Of a stretch of DNA of 64,000 bases, positions 4,826 to 63,969 are shown piece after piece. The notes under the pieces are model-generated. The model was not told where the DNA came from. It made no database searches and worked only from the letters and a program-made list of their open reading frames with translations. Numbering within the stretch: the stretch's first letter is position 1; the number at the start of each line of letters is the position of its first letter. Origin of the DNA: Mammaliicoccus vitulinus (lineage in GTDB: Bacteria; Bacillota; Bacilli; Staphylococcales; Staphylococcaceae); NCBI RefSeq assembly GCF_029024305.1, contig NZ_CP118974.1, positions 1,302,001 through 1,366,000 on the forward strand. The letters are read 5' to 3'. The position numbers and the translations under genes were made by a program.

Positions 4826-4921
4826 CGATTTTGAAAGTGCACGCTTGTCTTATGAATATGGCTCGAGCCAGTAGTCGCGTGCGTCTACTATTCCCCCGGG
4901 TTTCAGCACTTTACAAAATCG
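4826..4921 (-). repeat. 94-98 bp dispersed element, copy 1
   Basis: Runs from CGATTTTGAAAGTGC to GCACTTTACAAAATCG, so its ends form an inverted repeat of about 15 bp. The interior is GC-rich, with CTCGAGCC and CCCCCGGG blocks. Four more copies lie at 26260, 33398, 33605 and 63773. This copy is diverged inside. Strand is given relative to copies that read CCCGGGGGAATAG on the plus strand. I do not recognise a published name for it. Confidence 0.9.
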
Positions 4922-4930
4922 ATACAAAAA

Positions 4931-5057
4931 TGTCTTGGATTAACATCGGAATTAACTCACGACATGGGCAATGTCTTGGATTAACATCGGACTTAACTCA
5001 CGACTTGGGCAATGTCTTGGATTAACATCGGACTTAACTCACGACTTGGGCAATGTC
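4931..5057 (+). repeat. 41-bp tandem repeat, family B
   Basis: TGTCTTGGAT recurs at 4931, 4972 and 5013, and TGTCT at 5054, an exact 41-bp period. The unit contains an imperfect dyad, GTCTTGGATTAA paired with TTAACTCACGAC. The fourth unit is cut by the IS element. The array abuts the CCCGGG side of the 96-bp element, as the family A arrays do at 26.4 and 63.5 kb. Confidence 0.92.
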
Positions 5058-5085
5058 TGTACTGAACCCAAAAAGTTGAACTTTT

Positions 5086-19929: not shown

Positions 19930-19966
19930 TTAAAGTAATATTAAATAGAGCTATGACAGTAATGTA

Positions 19967-20007
19967 AAAGAGCGTAAATTCTTCTAACATAAGAATTCAC
20001 GCTCTTT
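19967..20007 (+). terminator. Terminator hairpin after ypoC (repeat-associated type)
   Basis: AAAGAGCGTAAATTCTT / AAGAATTCACGCTCTTTTT. Nearly the same arms recur at 26561-26597 and 63367-63408, each time 10-25 bases from CTGAGTCTTCGTGC or its complement (here 20020-20033). Confidence 0.85.
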
Positions 20008-20044
20008 TTACTTTATCCACTGAGTCTTCGTGCAATTTGACTGT

Positions 20045-20079
20045 GAATTTATCAAGTCAGGGCTCACATGATAAATAGA
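20045..20079 (+). repeat. Single unit of the 41-bp family A palindrome
   Basis: GAATTTATCAAGTCAGGG then CTCACATGATAAATAG, the same palindrome that forms tandem arrays at 26382 and 63467. One copy only, and no 94-98 bp element beside it. Confidence 0.88.
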
Positions 20080-20089
20080 ATATATAAAA

Positions 20090-24560: not shown

Positions 24561-24956
24561 CTTGAGTGGTATTTCGGATAATCGCTACGTTAAGTAGAGG
24601 AAAGTCCATGCTCACACATTCTGAGATGAATGTAGTGTTCGTGCTTGGCGAAACAATAAGCCAGGGCAATTAATTGACGGCAACGAAATAACCTAAGTTA
24701 TTTATAATATGGTTAAATTAGTTTGAAAGTGCCACAGTGACGGAGCTTGTACAGAAATGTAGAAGGTGGAACGCGGTAAACCCCTCGAGTGAGCAATCCA
24801 AAATTGGTAGGAGCACTTCTTTGACGGAAATGAACGGAATAAGAAGGTATGTCATCATACAGACAGATGATTATCACTGGCGTACGAGTGTAACTAGTGC
24901 ACGTTAGCAGTACTAAAGGACAAAACATGGCTTACAGATTTATCACTCACTAGTGT
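24561..24956 (+). ncRNA. rnpB: RNase P RNA, class B
   Basis: The catalytic RNA that matures tRNA 5' ends. Diagnostic conserved segments are present in order: GGATAATCGCTACG, AGAGGAAAGTCCATGCTC near the 5' end, GAAAGTGCCACAGTGACGGAG in the middle, GGTGGAACGCGGTAAACCCC, and TTACAGATTTATCAC near the 3' end. TATAAT at 24550-24555 is a likely -10 box, placing the 5' end at about 24561. The 3' end is estimated from the conserved tail. It sits between gpsB and rlmL as in other Staphylococcaceae. Confidence 0.95.
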
Positions 24957-26142: not shown

Positions 26143-26150
26143 ATAAAAAA

Positions 26151-26177
26151 TGGTAGCTCTTAGAGCTAGCATTTTTT
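26151..26177 (+). terminator. Terminator of rlmL
   Basis: TGGTAGCTCTTAGAGCTAGCA hairpin followed by TTTTTT. Confidence 0.8.
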
Positions 26178-26259
26178 CGTTTGTTCTTTTAAGTATATGC
26201 TGAATGTTGAAAGATTAACCAAACAAGCAACATAGAAGGGCTGTATATTTTAAAATCTA
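26175..26259 (+). repeat. Segment shared, inverted, with 33492-33604
   Basis: TTTTTCGTTTGTTCTTTTAA, then CAAACAAGCAACATAGAA and TATATTTTAAAATCTACG, match the reverse complement of the spacer between the two elements at 33.5 kb. It abuts the 94-98 bp element in both places, so it may be an extension of that element. Confidence 0.8.
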
Positions 26260-26357
26260 CGATTTTGAAAGTGCATGCTTGCCTTATGAATATGGTTCGA
26301 GACTGTAGTCGCGCGCGGCATACTATTCCCCCCGGGCGTCAGCACTTTGCAAAATCG
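26260..26357 (-). repeat. 94-98 bp dispersed element, copy 2
   Basis: From CGATTTTGAAAGTGCATG to GCACTTTGCAAAATCG, with the GC-rich core CCCCCCGGGCGTCAGC. Opposite orientation to the copies at 33.4, 33.6 and 63.8 kb. Its CCCGGG side faces the family A array. Confidence 0.92.
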
Positions 26358-26381
26358 TGGTGAATATTATAGAGATTTTTG

Positions 26382-26499
26382 CTATTTATCATGTGGACCT
26401 TGACTTGATAAATTCAACGGCTCTATTTATCATGTGAGCCCTGACTTGATAAATTCAACGGTCCTATTTATCATGTGGAGCCTGACTTGATAAATTCCC
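26382..26499 (-). repeat. 41-bp tandem repeat, family A, three units
   Basis: CTATTTATCATGTG begins at 26382, 26423 and 26464, an exact 41-bp period. Each unit is a palindrome, ATTTATCATGTG against a partner ending TTGATAAAT. It is the reverse complement of the array at 63.5 kb. Confidence 0.92.
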
Positions 26500-26560
26500 A
26501 AAGGGTAATCCAAGTGAAAGCCGATCAAATCGCACGAAGACTCAAAAGACAAATTAAAAT

Positions 26561-26597
26561 GAGCGCAAATTCTTGATTCCAAAAGAATTTGCGCTCT
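26561..26597 (-). terminator. Terminator of the ba3 oxidase operon (repeat-associated type)
   Basis: GAGCGCAAATTCTT / AAGAATTTGCGCTC hairpin, 5 bases past the subunit I stop. GCACGAAGACTCA, complement of the tag seen at 20.0 and 63.4 kb, lies at 26532-26544, between hairpin and array. Confidence 0.82.
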
Positions 26598-26602
26598 TTT
26601 AC

Positions 26603-33397: not shown

Positions 33398-33491
33398 GAT
33401 TTTGTAAAGTGCTGACGCCCGGGGGAATAGTATGAGTGAGAGACTACAGGCTCGAACCATACCCCTAGGCAAGCATGCACTTTCAAAATCG
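33398..33491 (+). repeat. 94-98 bp dispersed element, copy 3
   Basis: From TGATTTTGTAAAGTGCTGACG to GCACTTTCAAAATCG, with core CCCGGGGGAATAGTATGAG and AGACTACAGGCTCG. Nearly the same as copy 4. No 41-bp array beside it; the ypcP terminator occupies the CCCGGG side. Confidence 0.92.
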
Positions 33492-33604
33492 TAAGATTTT
33501 AATATATATAGACGTTCTATGTTGCTTGTTTGGTAAGTCTTGCAACATAGAGCATGTATTTAAAAGAACAAACGAAAAAATAATATAGACATGAATATCC
33601 TCAA
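33492..33604 (-). repeat. Segment shared, inverted, with 26175-26259
   Basis: GTTCTATGTTGCTTGTTTGG and TTAAAAGAACAAACGAAAAA match the reverse complement of the stretch beside copy 2. No open frame with a ribosome site is seen. Confidence 0.78.
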
Positions 33605-33699
33605 CGATTTTGCAAAGTGCGGACGCCCGGGGGAATAGTATGAGTGAGAGACTACAGGCTCGAGCCATACCCCTAGGCGAGCATGCACTTTCAAAATCG
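33605..33699 (+). repeat. 94-98 bp dispersed element, copy 4
   Basis: From CGATTTTGCAAAGTGCGGACG to GCACTTTCAAAATCG. Direct repeat of copy 3, 207 bp downstream. Confidence 0.92.
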
Positions 33700-33716
33700 T
33701 GAGATTTTGAGAATGG

Positions 33717-37500: not shown

Positions 37501-40500
37501 CACACCAGACAAAGACGATAATGATATCGATGGTGACGGTGTAAACAATGAGGACGAAAAACTCATTGGTACTGATCCTAAGAAAACAGATTCTGACGGA
37601 AATGGTACACCTGACGGTGAAGAAGATTATGATAACGACGGCATTAAGAACAGTGATGAATCTGATCCAGCTTCTAATCAACCAACAGATAAAGATGGAG
37701 ATGGTAATCCAGATATTATTACACCGAAAGATACAGATGGTGACGGCACACCAGACAAAGATGATAATGATATCGATGGCGATGGTGTAAACAATGAGGA
37801 CGAAAAACTCATCGGTACAGATCCAACAAATCCAGATACTGACGGTAATGGTACACCTGACGGTGAAGAAGATTATGATGGCGACGGTATTAAGAACAGT
37901 GACGAATCTGATACATCTTCTAACCAACCAACGGATAAAGATGGTGACGGTAATCCAGATATCACGACTGCGAAAGATACAGATGGCGACGGTACACCAG
38001 ACAAAGATGATAATGATATCGATGGCGATGGTGTAAACAATGAAGATGAAAAACTCATCGGTACAGATCCAACAAATCCAGATACTGATGGTAATGGTAC
38101 ACCTGATGGTGAAGAAGATCATGACGGCGACGGCATTAAAAACAGTGATGAATCTGATCCAGCTTCTAATCAACCAACGGATACTGATGGTGATGGTCAA
38201 CCAGATATCAATACACCGAAAGATACTGACGGAGATGGTACGCCAGATAAAGATGATAATGATATCGATAGCGACGGTGTAAACAATGAGGATGAAAAGC
38301 TCATTGGTACAGATCCAACAAATCCAGATACTGATGGTAATGGTACACCTGATGGTGAAGAAGATCATGACGGAGATGGCATTAAAAACAGTGATGAATC
38401 TGATCCAGCTTCTAATCATCCAACGGATACTGATGGTGATGGTCAACCAGATATCAATACACCGAAAGATACTGACGGAGATGGTACGCCAGATAAAGAT
38501 GATAATGATATCGATGGCGACGGTGTAAACAATGAGGATGAAAAGCTCATTGGTACAGATCCAACAAATCCAGATACTGATGGTAATGGTACACCTGATG
38601 GTGAAGAAGATCATGACGGAGATGGCATTAAAAACAGTGATGAATCTGATCCAGCTTCTAATCATCCAACGGATACTGATGGTGATGGTCAACCAGATAT
38701 CACGACACCGAAAGATACTGACGGAGATGGTACGCCAGATAAAGATGATAATGATATCGATGGCGACGGTGTAAACAATGAAGATGAAAAACTCATTGGT
38801 ACAGATCCTACAAATCCAGATACTGATGGTAATGGTACACCTGATGGTGAAGAAGATCATGACGGAGATGGCATTAAGAACAGTGACGAATCTGATACAT
38901 CTTCTAATCATCCAACGGATACTGATGGTGATGGTCAACCAGATATCACGACACCGAAAGATACTGACGGAGATGGTACGCCAGATAAAGATGATAATGA
39001 TATCGATGGCGACGGTGTAAACAATGAGGATGAAAAACTCATTGGTACAGATCCAACAAATCCAGATACTGATGGTAATGGTACACCTGACGGTGAAGAA
39101 GATCATGACGGCGACGGCATTAAGAACAGTGACGAATCTGATACATCTTCTAACCAACCAACGGATAAAGATGGTGACGGTAATCCAGATATCACGACTG
39201 CGAAAGATACAGATGGCGACGGTACACCAGACAAAGACGATAATGATATCGATGGCGATGGTGTAAACAATGAAGATGAAAAACTCATTGGTACAGATCC
39301 AACAAATCCAGATACTGATGGTAATGGTACACCTGATGGTGAAGAAGATCATGACGGAGATGGCATTAAAAACAGTGATGAATCTGATCCAGCTTCTAAT
39401 CATCCAACGGATACTGATGGTGATGGTCAACCAGATATCACGACACCGAAAGATACTGACGGAGATGGTACGCCAGATAAAGATGATAATGATATCGATG
39501 GCGACGGTGTAAACAATGAGGATGAAAAACTCATTGGTACAGATCCAACAAATCCTGATTCTAACAGTAATGGTACACCTGACGGTGAAGAAGATTATGA
39601 TGGCGACGGTATTAAGAACAGTGACGAATCTGATACATCTTCTAACCAACCAACAGATACAGATGGTGACGGTAATCCAGATATAACTACTCCATATGAT
39701 TCTGACTCAGACAGTGACTCAGACTCGGACAGTGACTCAGATTCAGATAGCGATTCAGACTCGGATAGTGATTCTGACTCAGATAGCGACTCAGACTCTG
39801 ACAGCGATTCAGACTCGGACAGCGACTCAGACTCCGATAGTGACTCAGACTCAGACAGCGATTCAGATTCAGATAGCGATTCAGACTCGGATAGTGATTC
39901 TGACTCAGATAGCGATTCAGACTCGGGCAGCGATTCAGACTCGGACAGCGACTCAGACTCCGATAGTGACTCAGACTCAGACAGCGATTCAGACTCAGAT
40001 AGCGACTCAGATTCAGATTCAGATAGCGATTCTGACTCTGACAGTGACTCTGATAGCGACTCTGATTCAGATAGTGACTCAGATTCAGATTCAGATAGCG
40101 ATTCAGATTCAGATAGCGATTCAGATTCAGATAGCGATTCAGACTCGGATAGTGATTCAGATTCAGATAGCGATTCTGACTCTGACAGTGACTCAGATTC
40201 CGATAGTGACTCAGATTCTGATAGCGACTCTGATTCCGATAGTGACTCAGATTCTGATAGCGACTCTGATTCAGACAGTGATTCAGATTCAGACAGCGAC
40301 TCTGATAGCGACTCTGATTCAGACAGTGACTCAGATTCAGATAGCGACTCTGATTCAGATAGTGACTCTGATTCAGATAGTGACTCAGATTCAGATAGCG
40401 ACTCTGATTCAGACAGTGACTCTGATTCAGATAGCGACTCTGACTCAGACAGCGATTCAGATTCAGATAGCGATTCAGACTCGGATAGTGATTCTGACTC

Positions 40501-42016
40501 AGATAGCGATTCAGACTCGGACAGCGACTCAGACTCGGACAGCGACTCAGACTCCGATAGTGACTCAGACTCAGACAGCGACTCAGACTCAGATAGTGAT
40601 TCTGATTCCGACAGCGACTCAGATTCTGATAGTGACTCAGATTCTGATAGCGATTCAGACTCAGACAGCGATTCAGATTCAGATAGCGATTCAGACTCGG
40701 ACAGCGACTCAGACTCCGATAGTGACTCAGACTCAGACAGCGACTCTGACTCAGATAGTGATTCTGATTCCGACAGTGATTCAGACTCTGATAGCGACTC
40801 AGATTCTGATAGCGACTCTGATTCCGACAGTGACTCTGATTCAGATAGTGACTCAGATAGCGACTCAGACTCAGATAGTGACTCAGATTCAGATAGCGAC
40901 TCTGATTCAGATAGTGACTCAGATAGTGACTCAGATTCTGATAGCGACTCTGATTCAGACAGTGATTCAGATTCAGACAGCGACTCTGATTCAGACAGCG
41001 ACTCTGATAGCGATTCAGATTCTGACAGCGACTCTGATTCCGATAGTGACTCAGATTCCGACAGTGATTCAGACTCTGATAGCGACTCTGATTCAGATAG
41101 CGACTCAGACTCTGATAGCGACTCTGATTCCGATAGCGACTCAGATTCTGATAGTGACTCAGATTCCGACAGTGATTCAGACTCTGATAGCGACTCAGAT
41201 TCAGATAGCGATTCAGACTCAGACAGCGACTCTGATTCAGATAGCGATTCAGATTCAGACAGCGATTCAGATTCAGATAGCGACACAGACTCAGACAGCG
41301 ACACAGACTCAGACAGTGATTCAGATTCTGACAGCGACACAGACTCAGACAGTGATTCAGATTCCGATAGCGATTCAGACTCAGATAGCAACGTAAATAA
41401 AGGCAGCGATGCTGACAACAATACACCTGGTTATGGTAAGGATAGCAGCAGTACTTCTGTGAAACCTGGCATGAGTACTCATATCCCTCAAACTGGAGAT
41501 AATACTTTCCCTCCTGGAACTAAGTTTGAAGTACCTCCTAGCAAAGTTCCTAATGGTTGGATTGTAACTGTTGATCCTAATACAGGCGATATAACTGTAA
41601 CACCACCTGCAAATGCAGTTCCTGGTAGCATCGTTAATATTCCTGTTATGGTCACTTATCCAGATGGTACTTCTGAAGAGGTGAATGTTGAAGTTGTTGT
41701 AGCAGGAGATTCAGCAGCACAAGATTCTGTTACATCTAATCAAGCTGATGTTCAGAATAAACAAATGTCATCTAATTCAGAAGAACAAACAGCAAACGCT
41801 ATGCAAGTTTCTAAAGATAATGTTTCTAGAAATAGTGACATGAATAAAGACATGAGTAACGACATGAATAAAGATGATGCTTCTAAAGCTAAAGTTTTAC
41901 CTGATACAGGTGAACAGCCTATAGAAAATACAACTTTATTTGGTAGTCTGTTTGCAGGACTTGGTTCATTATTCCTATTTGGTCGTCGTAAAGATGAAAA
42001 AGAAGAAAATGAATAG
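34559..42016 (+). CDS. Giant LPXTG-anchored SD-repeat surface protein, mosaic adhesin
   Basis: A 2485-residue wall-anchored protein. Order: signal peptide of YSIRK type ([16 protein letters not shown], 1-41); acidic low-complexity linker (42-230); a segment resembling streptococcal surface proteins (about 235-520); Rib-like beta modules, including two near-identical copies with [11 protein letters not shown] and [18 protein letters not shown] (about 820-970); nine 82-residue calcium-binding-type repeats (975-1712); 282 Ser-Asp dipeptides (1714-2277); a last module with [22 protein letters not shown], a hydrophobic helix and [11 protein letters not shown]. Sortase A would link it to peptidoglycan. 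ATG 34559 follows AAAGGGGATTGCTA. The ligand is unknown. Confidence 0.93.
37481..39694 (+). repeat. Nine 246-bp tandem repeats (thrombospondin type 3-like)
   Basis: Nine in-frame units of 82 residues, each with [28 protein letters not shown] and [12 protein letters not shown]. The DxDxDG pattern is that of calcium-binding type 3 repeats. Units differ at only a few sites (PASNQ, PASNH, TSSNQ), and the DNA is almost the same. The first unit ([13 protein letters not shown]) and the last (PDSNSNG) are the most diverged. Confidence 0.95.
39698..41389 (+). repeat. Ser-Asp dipeptide repeat, 1692 bp
   Basis: A run of GAY-TCN/AGY hexamers encoding 564 residues, one of the longer SD regions I know of in Sdr-type proteins. 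Exceptions are a Gly-for-Asp-adjacent change (GACTCGGGCAGC near 39926) and several Asp-Thr pairs close to the end. It acts as a stalk across the cell wall and is the usual target of SD glycosyltransferases, which are not in this window. Confidence 0.97.
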
Positions 42017-55016: not shown

Positions 55017-56084
55017 ATGAAAAAAATAGCCTTTACCGGTGGTGGTACGATAGGGCATGTAGCTGTAAACTTAGCCCTTATACCAGAAGCCCAAAAACGC
55101 AATATTGAAACAATATATATAGGTTCTAAAGACGGTATTGAAAAAGAAATGATAATTGACTCAGCTAAAGATACTAAATATATTTCAATATCTAGCGGCA
55201 AGCTTCGAAGATATTTATCTTTTGAAAATTTAAAAGATATTTTTAAAGTTATGAAAGGTGTTTTCGATGCACGTAAAGTATTAAAAAAAGAAAAACCGGA
55301 TCTTGTATTTTCAAAAGGAGGTTTCGTCAGTGTACCTGTCATCATTGCAGCTAAATCTTTGAAAATACCAACTATCGTTCACGAATCAGATGTTACGCCT
55401 GGTTTAGCAAATAAAATCGCGATGAAATTTGCAACTAGAATGTATACGACTTTTGAAGAAACATTAAAATATGTTCCAAATGAAAAATCAGATTATATCG
55501 GTGCCATTATAAGAGAAGATTTAAGAGGCGGTTCTAAAGAAGAAGGTTATAAATTAACAGGGTTTAATTCAAAACTTCCGGTACTATTAATTATGGGAGG
55601 AAGTTTAGGTTCTAAAGTACTTAATGAATCAATTAGAGCAAACCTTAACTATTTAACTAAAAAGTACCAAATTATTCACTTAACAGGTAAAGGTCATCTT
55701 GATAATACAATCAAAAATGAAAATTATGTTCAATATGAATTTGTGTCAAACGAACTTATGCACTTTTATGCTATAACAAGCACTGTGATAAGCAGAGCTG
55801 GCGCAAACGCAATTTATGAATTTGCAACATTAAAACTACCTATGTTATTGATACCACTAGGATTAGATCAATCCAGAGGTGACCAAATCGATAATGCTAA
55901 AATCTTCGAGAAAAATGGTTATGCAAAAGTATTGCAAGAAAAAGAAGTTAATCAATCAAATCTAGTTAGACAATTAGATCAATTAGAAAATGAAAGAACT
56001 GATATCATTGACAAAATGTCCAACTTCAAAGAAAGTTATACTAAAGAAACATTGTTCAACAAAATTGAAGAAGATATAAAGTAA
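55017..56084 (+). CDS. murG: UDP-N-acetylglucosamine--lipid I GlcNAc transferase
   Basis: Makes lipid II from lipid I on the inner membrane face. The 355-residue GT28 enzyme starts with FTGGGTIGHVAVNLAL, the glycine-rich loop, and has the donor site IMGGSLGSKVLNESI and VISRAGANAIYEFATLKLPMLLIPL. The ribosome site is CAAGGAGAAATAAATC. It is separate from the dcw cluster, as in staphylococci. Confidence 0.96.
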   Translation: MKKIAFTGGGTIGHVAVNLALIPEAQKRNIETIYIGSKDGIEKEMIIDSAKDTKYISISSGKLRRYLSFENLKDIFKVMKGVFDARKVLKKEKPDLVFSKGGFVSVPVIIAAKSLKIPTIVHESDVTPGLANKIAMKFATRMYTTFEETLKYVPNEKSDYIGAIIREDLRGGSKEEGYKLTGFNSKLPVLLIMGGSLGSKVLNESIRANLNYLTKKYQIIHLTGKGHLDNTIKNENYVQYEFVSNELMHFYAITSTVISRAGANAIYEFATLKLPMLLIPLGLDQSRGDQIDNAKIFEKNGYAKVLQEKEVNQSNLVRQLDQLENERTDIIDKMSNFKESYTKETLFNKIEEDIK

Positions 56085-63325: not shown

Positions 63326-63366
63326 TTTTAAAAGATGCTGAGACATTAACATCTTAGATTAATATA

Positions 63367-63408
63367 AAAAAGCGTAAATTCTTATTTCGAAGAATTTGCG
63401 CTTTTTTT
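63367..63408 (+). terminator. Terminator of odhAB (repeat-associated type)
   Basis: AAAAAGCGTAAATTCTT / AAGAATTTGCGCTTTTTTT. CTGAGTCTTCGTGC follows at 63419-63432, the same arrangement as at 20.0 kb and, inverted, at 26.5 kb. Confidence 0.88.
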
Positions 63409-63466
63409 AGTTTATCTGCTGAGTCTTCGTGCGTTTTACCTAGTATTTACTTGGATTACCCCTGAT

Positions 63467-63746
63467 GAATTTATCAAGTCAGGCTTCACATGATAAATAG
63501 AGACCGTGATATTATCAAGTCATGGTCCACATGATAAATAGAGTCGTTGAATTTATCATGTCAGGTTCCACATGATAAATAGAGCCCGTGAATTTATCAA
63601 GTCAGACTCCACATGATAAATAGAGCCTTTGAATTTATCAAGTCAGGCTCCACATGATAAATAGAGCCGTTGAATTTATCATGTCAGGCTTCACATGATA
63701 AATAGAGTCGTTGAATTTATCATGTCAGGGCTCCACATGATAAATA
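63467..63746 (+). repeat. 41-bp tandem repeat, family A, seven units
   Basis: CACATGATAAATAG starts at 63487, 63528, 63569, 63610, 63651, 63692 and 63734: six steps of 41, 41, 41, 41, 41 and 42 bp. Each unit folds, ATTTATCATGT against ACATGATAAAT. Arms alternate between ATCAAGTCA and ATCATGTCA in the left half, while the right half hardly varies. Confidence 0.95.
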
Positions 63747-63772
63747 GCAATAAATTTTTATAATATTCCTCA

Positions 63773-63866
63773 CGATTTTGCAAACTGCTGACGCCCGGGG
63801 GAGTAGTATGAGTGAGAGACTACAGGCTCGCACCATACCCCAGGCAAGCATGCACTTTCAAAATCG
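63773..63866 (+). repeat. 94-98 bp dispersed element, copy 5
   Basis: From CGATTTTGCAAACTGCTGACG to GCACTTTCAAAATCG, core CCCGGGGGAGTAGTATGAG. It lies 27 bases after the family A array, with its CCCGGG side toward the array. Confidence 0.92.
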
Positions 63867-63969
63867 TAAGATTGTAAAATTAATTCACGCTTATAACTTG
63901 ATTGATTTGTCATTGTTTCAACTTATTTGTTATAATTTATTAGACTTCATATATGGGAGAGAGATATTC

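Follow-up and report, generated by a model that had tools for sequence, protein, structure and literature searches.

Palindrome-array repeats of a Mammaliicoccus chromosome as probable gene-less derivatives of an IS1182-family insertion sequence

The described systems closest to the repeats reported here are IS1182-family insertion sequences, MITEs and the intergenic repeats of staphylococci. IS1272, a member of this family from staphylococci, has a length of 1,945 bp and a 548-aa transposase; on insertion it takes the place of inverted repeats, and the target is not duplicated (consulted parts of PMC5678879). Insertion into terminator hairpins is described for TnSha1/IS1272 (consulted parts of PMC4923244). 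The parts consulted of these two papers make no mention of the folded module, here called E, that accompanies the elements below. STAR elements of S. aureus are intergenic direct repeats of variable copy number (consulted parts of PMC3532100), a likeness to the repeats considered here. Primers for dru, the SCCmec VNTR used as an MRSA typing repeat, are printed in PMC3636274 (parts consulted).

We analysed a stretch of 64 kb ("the window"), positions 1,302,001-1,366,000 of a 2.64-Mb Mammaliicoccus chromosome. Its DNA is 88% identical across 1.5 kb to that of Mammaliicoccus fleurettii DSM 13212 (G004), and the label Macrococcus given by a sequence-only reading of the window was wrong. The same reading described a terminator hairpin, a 14-bp tag, a 41-bp palindrome array and a 94-98 bp element with inverted ends, and all four are present where it placed them. 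They make up a composite at 63334-63883 with the following parts:

63334..63409, plus strand: IS1182-family left end (IS positions 1-78, 78% identical; blastn with the intact IS)
63370-63403, plus strand: terminator-like hairpin inside the IS left end, from the sequence; the same left end occurs in 5/5 intact copies
63419..63440, plus strand: remnant of unit C, a 51-bp unit that is tandem elsewhere; contains the 14-bp tag (63419-63432)
63466..63747, plus strand: array of about seven copies of the 41-bp palindromic unit A, in what would be the place of the transposase gene, as inferred from sister copies
63770..63883, plus strand: E module and the start of the next IS sequence (IS 1754-1867, 88%; blastn), with a covariance-model core at 63783-63857 (89.9 bits)

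TRF counts 6.9 copies in the A array; there are seven palindromes if the last, which has one extra base, is included. E itself (about 63770-63870) has inverted ends at 63769-63783 and 63856-63870 (15 nt, 87%). The tag is not a part in its own right; it belongs to the separate tandem unit C. There is also an additional 41-bp unit besides A, unit B.

Further copies lie elsewhere in the window, among them the inverted copy and the short form that had been claimed at 26260-26597 and 19967-20079, both of which are real:

26246..26601, minus strand: inverted composite with left end (26555-26601), C (26524-26545), three A units (26378-26496) and E (26246-26359; core 26269-26347, 51.5 bits with the covariance model)
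26146..26236, minus strand: IS 95-120 piece (26146-26171) together with a single B unit (26201-26236), adjoining the inverted composite (blastn with the IS)
19965..20082, plus strand: short form with IS left-end hairpin, C tag and one A unit, without E (blastn with the IS)
33398..33708, plus strand: two E copies (33398-33511 and 33604-33708), separated by one B unit and a piece of IS 556-594 in inverted orientation
4826..4929, minus strand: divergent E copy, 39.0 bits (blastn with the IS and covariance model)
4929..5058, no strand assigned: 41-bp array of unrelated sequence, 3.2 copies (TRF), on the CCCGGG side of the E copy at 4826-4929

The window also holds an 18-bp in-frame repeat of about 94 copies within an ORF (39696-41396), which we take to be of the serine-aspartate repeat type, an RNase P RNA of class B (24570-24939) and a match to the Staphylococcus sRNA S414 (55545-55719).

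The parent of the composite is present in the same genome. We identified five intact IS1182-family transposase genes (543/548 residues aligned, no stops), and the transposase of one copy (L255) scores 409 bits against NF033551, the IS1182 equivalog, for which the cut-off is 270. The intact IS consists of a left end, a hairpin, a minus-strand transposase gene, E, a second hairpin and an end with ATTTATGTCCC. Its length of 1,941 bp resembles the 1,945 bp of IS1272. E lies 100 bp before the transposase start in all five intact copies, with the left-end hairpin on the opposite side, and a plasmid search placed E beside an IS1182-family transposase gene in two records; it is this transposase that has the five intact copies here. 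On the IS map, the composite at 63334-63883 reads as IS 1-78, C, the A array and IS 1754-1867, and what it has in common with the autonomous IS is the left end (1-78) and E (1754-1867). Other composites map in a similar way. By sequence comparison, the left hairpin of the composite is the left end of the IS, and E is a subterminal module belonging to the IS, which lies before the transposase gene and is directed away from that gene.

Between 63326 and 63950 there is no ORF of at least 90 aa and no transposase match; thus the composite has no transposase gene of its own, and differs in this from IS1272/TnSha1, carrying an array instead. The remaining right end of the IS (1868-1941) was not found beyond E by blastn with the intact IS, so this composite may no longer be mobile. 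We conclude, with a probability of roughly 0.9, that the composite derives from an IS1182-family element, is non-autonomous and has partly decayed; it is formed of the IS left end, an array and E. The sequence-only reading, which suggested one mobile or amplified unit, was right in this respect: the order is that of an IS1182-family IS with an array replacing the transposase gene. Its statement that no named family fits did not hold, as the parent belongs to a named family (NF033551) and a relative of the composite is named dru. The composites partly resemble MITEs, in that many short transposase-less copies have end sequence in common with an intact IS in their own genome; they differ from them in their tandem arrays and covarying subterminal module, and in that some copies are chimeras of two IS1182-family elements.

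The place of the array is seen in sister copies. A second, distant IS1182-family element encodes a 450-aa transposase, and a variant of E, here D, lies upstream of this gene in 4/4 copies searched, all in two genomes (G005 and G006). Nine composites in the present genome retain the ribosome site and start codon of this second element, and the A array starts 15 bp later; thus the array stands in for the gene. D is upstream in 8/9 of these start-codon composites. Counted the other way, 8/11 D-A composites have the start-codon form and three lack the start codon, and one more site has the start codon and D without an array. In M. fleurettii (locus L123), an array abuts transposase codons 1-4, which are followed by the upstream/promoter region and E. 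As read from these sequences, the array stands, in sister copies, where the transposase reading frame should be.

We searched the whole genome for the parts of the composite. The E core pattern with up to 3 mismatches has 113 matches (0 for the reversed pattern), and the tag pattern with up to 1 mismatch has 75 (0 for the control), so that chance does not account for them. Unit A has 135 forward and 134 reverse matches, mostly the same palindromic sites counted from both strands, and unit B has 144 and 133; for the E core, A and B, places are given for the first 100 matches of each pattern. We then mapped the repeats on 434 kb (16% of the chromosome), chosen mostly for holding them, where 110 E copies were called, including one chance call (836230) and one degenerate copy (956893). 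The usual order on one strand is left hairpin, C, A or B, and E. An A, B or C unit lies within 120 bp of E on the CCCGGG side only in 58 of the 110 copies, on the other side only in 3, on both in 5 and on neither in 44; the bias of 58 versus 3 has a binomial p of 3e-14. The unit has the same orientation as E in 59 of the 63 left-side cases and the opposite one in 4. The order that had been described as fixed is thus a strong rule with exceptions, and no fixed law.

Gene-end location is equally marked. The 126 element clusters on the 434 kb fall into 68 between convergent genes, 50 between codirectional genes, 2 between divergent genes and 6 at an edge or unclassed. Among the codirectional clusters, 42 are closer to the 3' end of the upstream gene and 8 to the 5' end of the next gene. 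In all, 118/126 clusters are downstream of at least one gene; for comparison, window gaps of at least 40 bp comprise 14 codirectional, 5 convergent and 5 divergent. On the 434 kb, the proposed preference in order, side and gene-end location was therefore borne out.

Many copies are incomplete. The right-end motif is found within 160 bp of 39/110 E copies (3 for the reversed control) and the left-end motif within 900 bp of 30/110 (control 0). Both motifs are near E in 13/110, and one or both are missing, as searched, in 97/110. Thirty E copies stand apart, with neither an array nor another part of the IS within 300 bp; 16 of these are an array-less short form with a CACCCAATCC hairpin left of E, and three more have this hairpin on the right. 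Many B-type copies have an extra IS 547-594 piece, inverted, between array and E. In one locus (L006, genome 2130333-2130356; candidate scoring covered 40 of 161 candidates), a lone right arm of E (24 bases) lies beside a B unit, and it looks as if an insertion took away the rest of the E hairpin.

The site of the intact copy L255 suggests how gene-end location may arise. In six of seven relatives this site has only a terminator hairpin, with A-run and T-run, between convergent genes. Here it reads GAAAAAA-IS-TTTTTTT and the hairpin is gone in the alignment, which was read by eye. In the seventh relative, G005, this terminator is occupied by a different element that also carries E. By alignment, then, the intact copy sits exactly at the terminator hairpin of its relatives. 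Replacement of the hairpin by the IS, without any target duplication seen, is our reading by eye of this one intact copy, and resembles the behaviour reported for IS1272 and, in its terminator target, for TnSha1. The element that G005 has at this terminator (L303, about 2200-2500; E core 2406-2480) includes a short repeat of about 40 bp and has target hairpin sequence on both sides.

From these sequences and the published work on IS1272, the transposase of intact copies may move the composites in trans. The targets would be hairpins, chiefly terminators, and the hairpin would be replaced. Insertion of this kind, replacing terminator hairpins, would be the reason why composites lie at gene ends with a terminator of their own. 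Arrays would lengthen or shorten by slippage or by unequal exchange between like units.

The same composite was found in no relative at any of the five sites of the window wherever these are comparable, which is the case in none of the seven relatives for site 1, in seven each for sites 2, 3 and 4, and in three for site 5 (the composite at 63334-63883). The element at 33398-33708 is absent at the same site in 7/7 relatives. Site 2 has E with a 40-bp array in G004 and a 51-bp array in G001, and 41-bp arrays are present at site 3 in G001 and at site 5 in G002.

The arrays have a narrow range of periods. Among noncoding arrays in the scanned loci, 89/92 have periods of 39-41 or 51-52 bp, a set in which loci were partly picked by units A, B and C, coding status was judged crudely from open frames, overlapping M. 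fleurettii stretches may double-count loci and three SCCmec records are copies of one locus. In unselected stretches, 10/11 arrays have periods in the narrow range, the exception being 131 bp. The units fall into several classes of unrelated sequence. Three of them, the dru unit included, do not fold more than shuffles do (z-scores 0.1, 0.3 and 1.1); thus the term palindrome array is not general, and the period is more general than the fold. Periods of 40-41 and 51 bp correspond to about four and five helical turns and lie one turn apart. A second hairpin formed from A-unit spacers and neighbouring loops was considered and rejected (mean run of 3.57 with the next loop and 3.53 with the unit's own loop, versus 3.68 and 3.73 with shuffled partners; 83 pairs). 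The derivation from an IS does not account for the array period.

E has a conserved fold. A first alignment, which supplied the structure, has 95.5% of cells paired and 7/16 pairs changed on both sides, a count reached by 6/500 shuffles. A second alignment comprises 19 cores, of which 9 come from loci already used in the first. Here 95.4% of the 304 cells are paired and 11/16 pairs are doubly changed (0/500 shuffles); in slid controls the paired share is 43.6% or less. Neither alignment has any change in the loop ACTACAGG. Conservation of the pairing shows selection on a single strand, either ssDNA or RNA. With a covariance model built from 25 cores, E was identified 89-107 bp before the transposase start in 20/36 loci (8/8 known carriers and 12/28 new ones). 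Of the 16 transposase loci without E, 15 were inspected: in 14 the element terminates with a plain hairpin, and in the other it runs past the locus boundary; the 14 imply that E is not essential to the IS1182 family. Within the order, the model matches in at least 89/157 genomes (at most 30 candidates scored per genome), and a transposase match of any kind, including partial and distant ones, is present in 97/157. In M. fleurettii (L121, L110, L091 and L074) E is itself tandem, repeating about every 120-125 bp, from two times up to four or more. Outside Staphylococcaceae, E cores with other outer stems were seen in Caryophanon and Ureibacillus (L083, L084, L087, L089 and L101). E may be a folded strand (ssDNA or RNA) acting in cis, recognised by the transposase or controlling it; we hold the odds that E is a cis-acting folded site to be about even.

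The same layout is found in SCCmec. In 3/3 plasmid-borne SCCmec records, the dru primers HVR2 and druF2 match exactly to the left of a 40-bp array, druR2 matches exactly within E, and HVR1 matches E in 18/19 bases. In all three records E comes immediately to the right of the array (9.2, 5.2 and 10.2 copies), and a hairpin and ATTTATGTCCCAAGCTC come after E. The HVR1 sequence occurs without mismatch in 12 M. fleurettii loci. Locus L127 of M. fleurettii has the same two flanks as SCCmec dru with a related array between them, and locus L115 matches the SCCmec copy base for base over 465 bp, from the end of the array through E and beyond. The dru VNTR thus has the array-then-E layout of the composite; it differs in unit sequence and in its period of 40 rather than 41 bp, and clustering shows no homology between unit A and the dru unit. 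Judged from these matches, dru is very probably an element of the same kind as the composite, and not the same repeat. In the part of the literature listings that was surveyed, we found no paper linking dru to an IS1182-family element or stating such an origin for the VNTR, and a literature search by repeat sequence returned only primers of other subjects.

Other origins for these repeats have to be weighed against derivation from an IS. A, B, C and E are each also found alone, and the 44 E copies without a nearby unit would fit repeats that are unrelated, merely common to gene ends, and ordered by chance; the bias of 58 to 3 and the identical 15-bp breakpoint in nine composites make this extremely improbable. 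We give equally little credence to REP/REPIN elements moved by a RAYT (Y1 transposase). High copy number, palindromes and intergenic location are shared with them, but PF01797 (Y1_Tnp) has 0 matches in this genome (G000), with matches in 7/40 genomes and in 1/8 of the genus, and E goes with an IS1182-family DDE transposase instead. Two other candidates were rejected: the STAR motif TNTGTTGNGGCCC occurs 0 times on either strand of the mapped 434 kb, and a phage origin finds no match among 50,697 phage records. The arrays could also be chromosome-organising or protein-binding sites, similar to BIMEs, that are kept for helical phasing and were merely spread by the IS. The narrow periods in unrelated unit classes, one turn apart, speak for such sites. 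However, the same array is missing at orthologous sites of relatives, some unit classes have no fold beyond shuffles, no binding protein is known and the choice of scanned loci was guided in part by units A, B and C; we consider this explanation improbable. The earlier suggestion of a chromosome-organising or RNA-processing site is without support of its own; only the narrow periods and the conserved fold of E leave a function possible, and that the arrays have one seems to us rather doubtful.

A different possibility, compatible with derivation from an IS, is that E works mainly as a regulatory or structural RNA (a tsr24-like sRNA). The IS would carry this RNA, which would act on transposase expression or on host transcripts, with the arrays co-transcribed. 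Strong covariation and the fixed loop are as expected of an RNA. Moreover, S. aureus tsr24 (Rfam RF02577) can be aligned, from end to end, with the junction of array and E in SCCmec (27.0 bits, E = 9e-4), and the tsr24 consensus has an E-like core. Against this, tsr24 scores of 27.0 bits (SCCmec) and 20.4 bits (window) are both under the curated threshold of 50, and no Rfam family reaches its gathering threshold at the 63334-63883 site. Folded ssDNA accounts equally for the covariation, and promoter-like pairs are rare at the junctions (3/30 A-E junctions, and none when each was shuffled once). The idea that the array provides E with a promoter was dropped, 3/30 being weak evidence for it. On sequence comparison, we regard a chiefly RNA role of E as possible, with the odds clearly against it.

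Derivation of the composites from an IS1182-family element can be extended to a broader proposal. IS1182-family elements of staphylococci and mammaliicocci may have a gene-less form, in which the transposase frame has been swapped for helically phased arrays (40/41 or 51 bp, of several unrelated sequences) as a working part. Such an array might be a row of hairpins or phased sites that bind or attract a hairpin-seeking transposase, as a landing pad or enhancer beside folded E. The dru locus of SCCmec would be one such element, taken with the mec region from a mammaliicoccal chromosome. We offer this extended form tentatively, as conceivable and on balance unlikely.

The finding offers an origin for a group of intergenic VNTRs found in Staphylococcaceae, dru among them, and hairpin-targeted insertion would explain the gene-end location of the repeats. 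The biology of the IS1182 family gains a conserved folded module, and both the role of E and the reason for the narrow repeat period are now directly testable.
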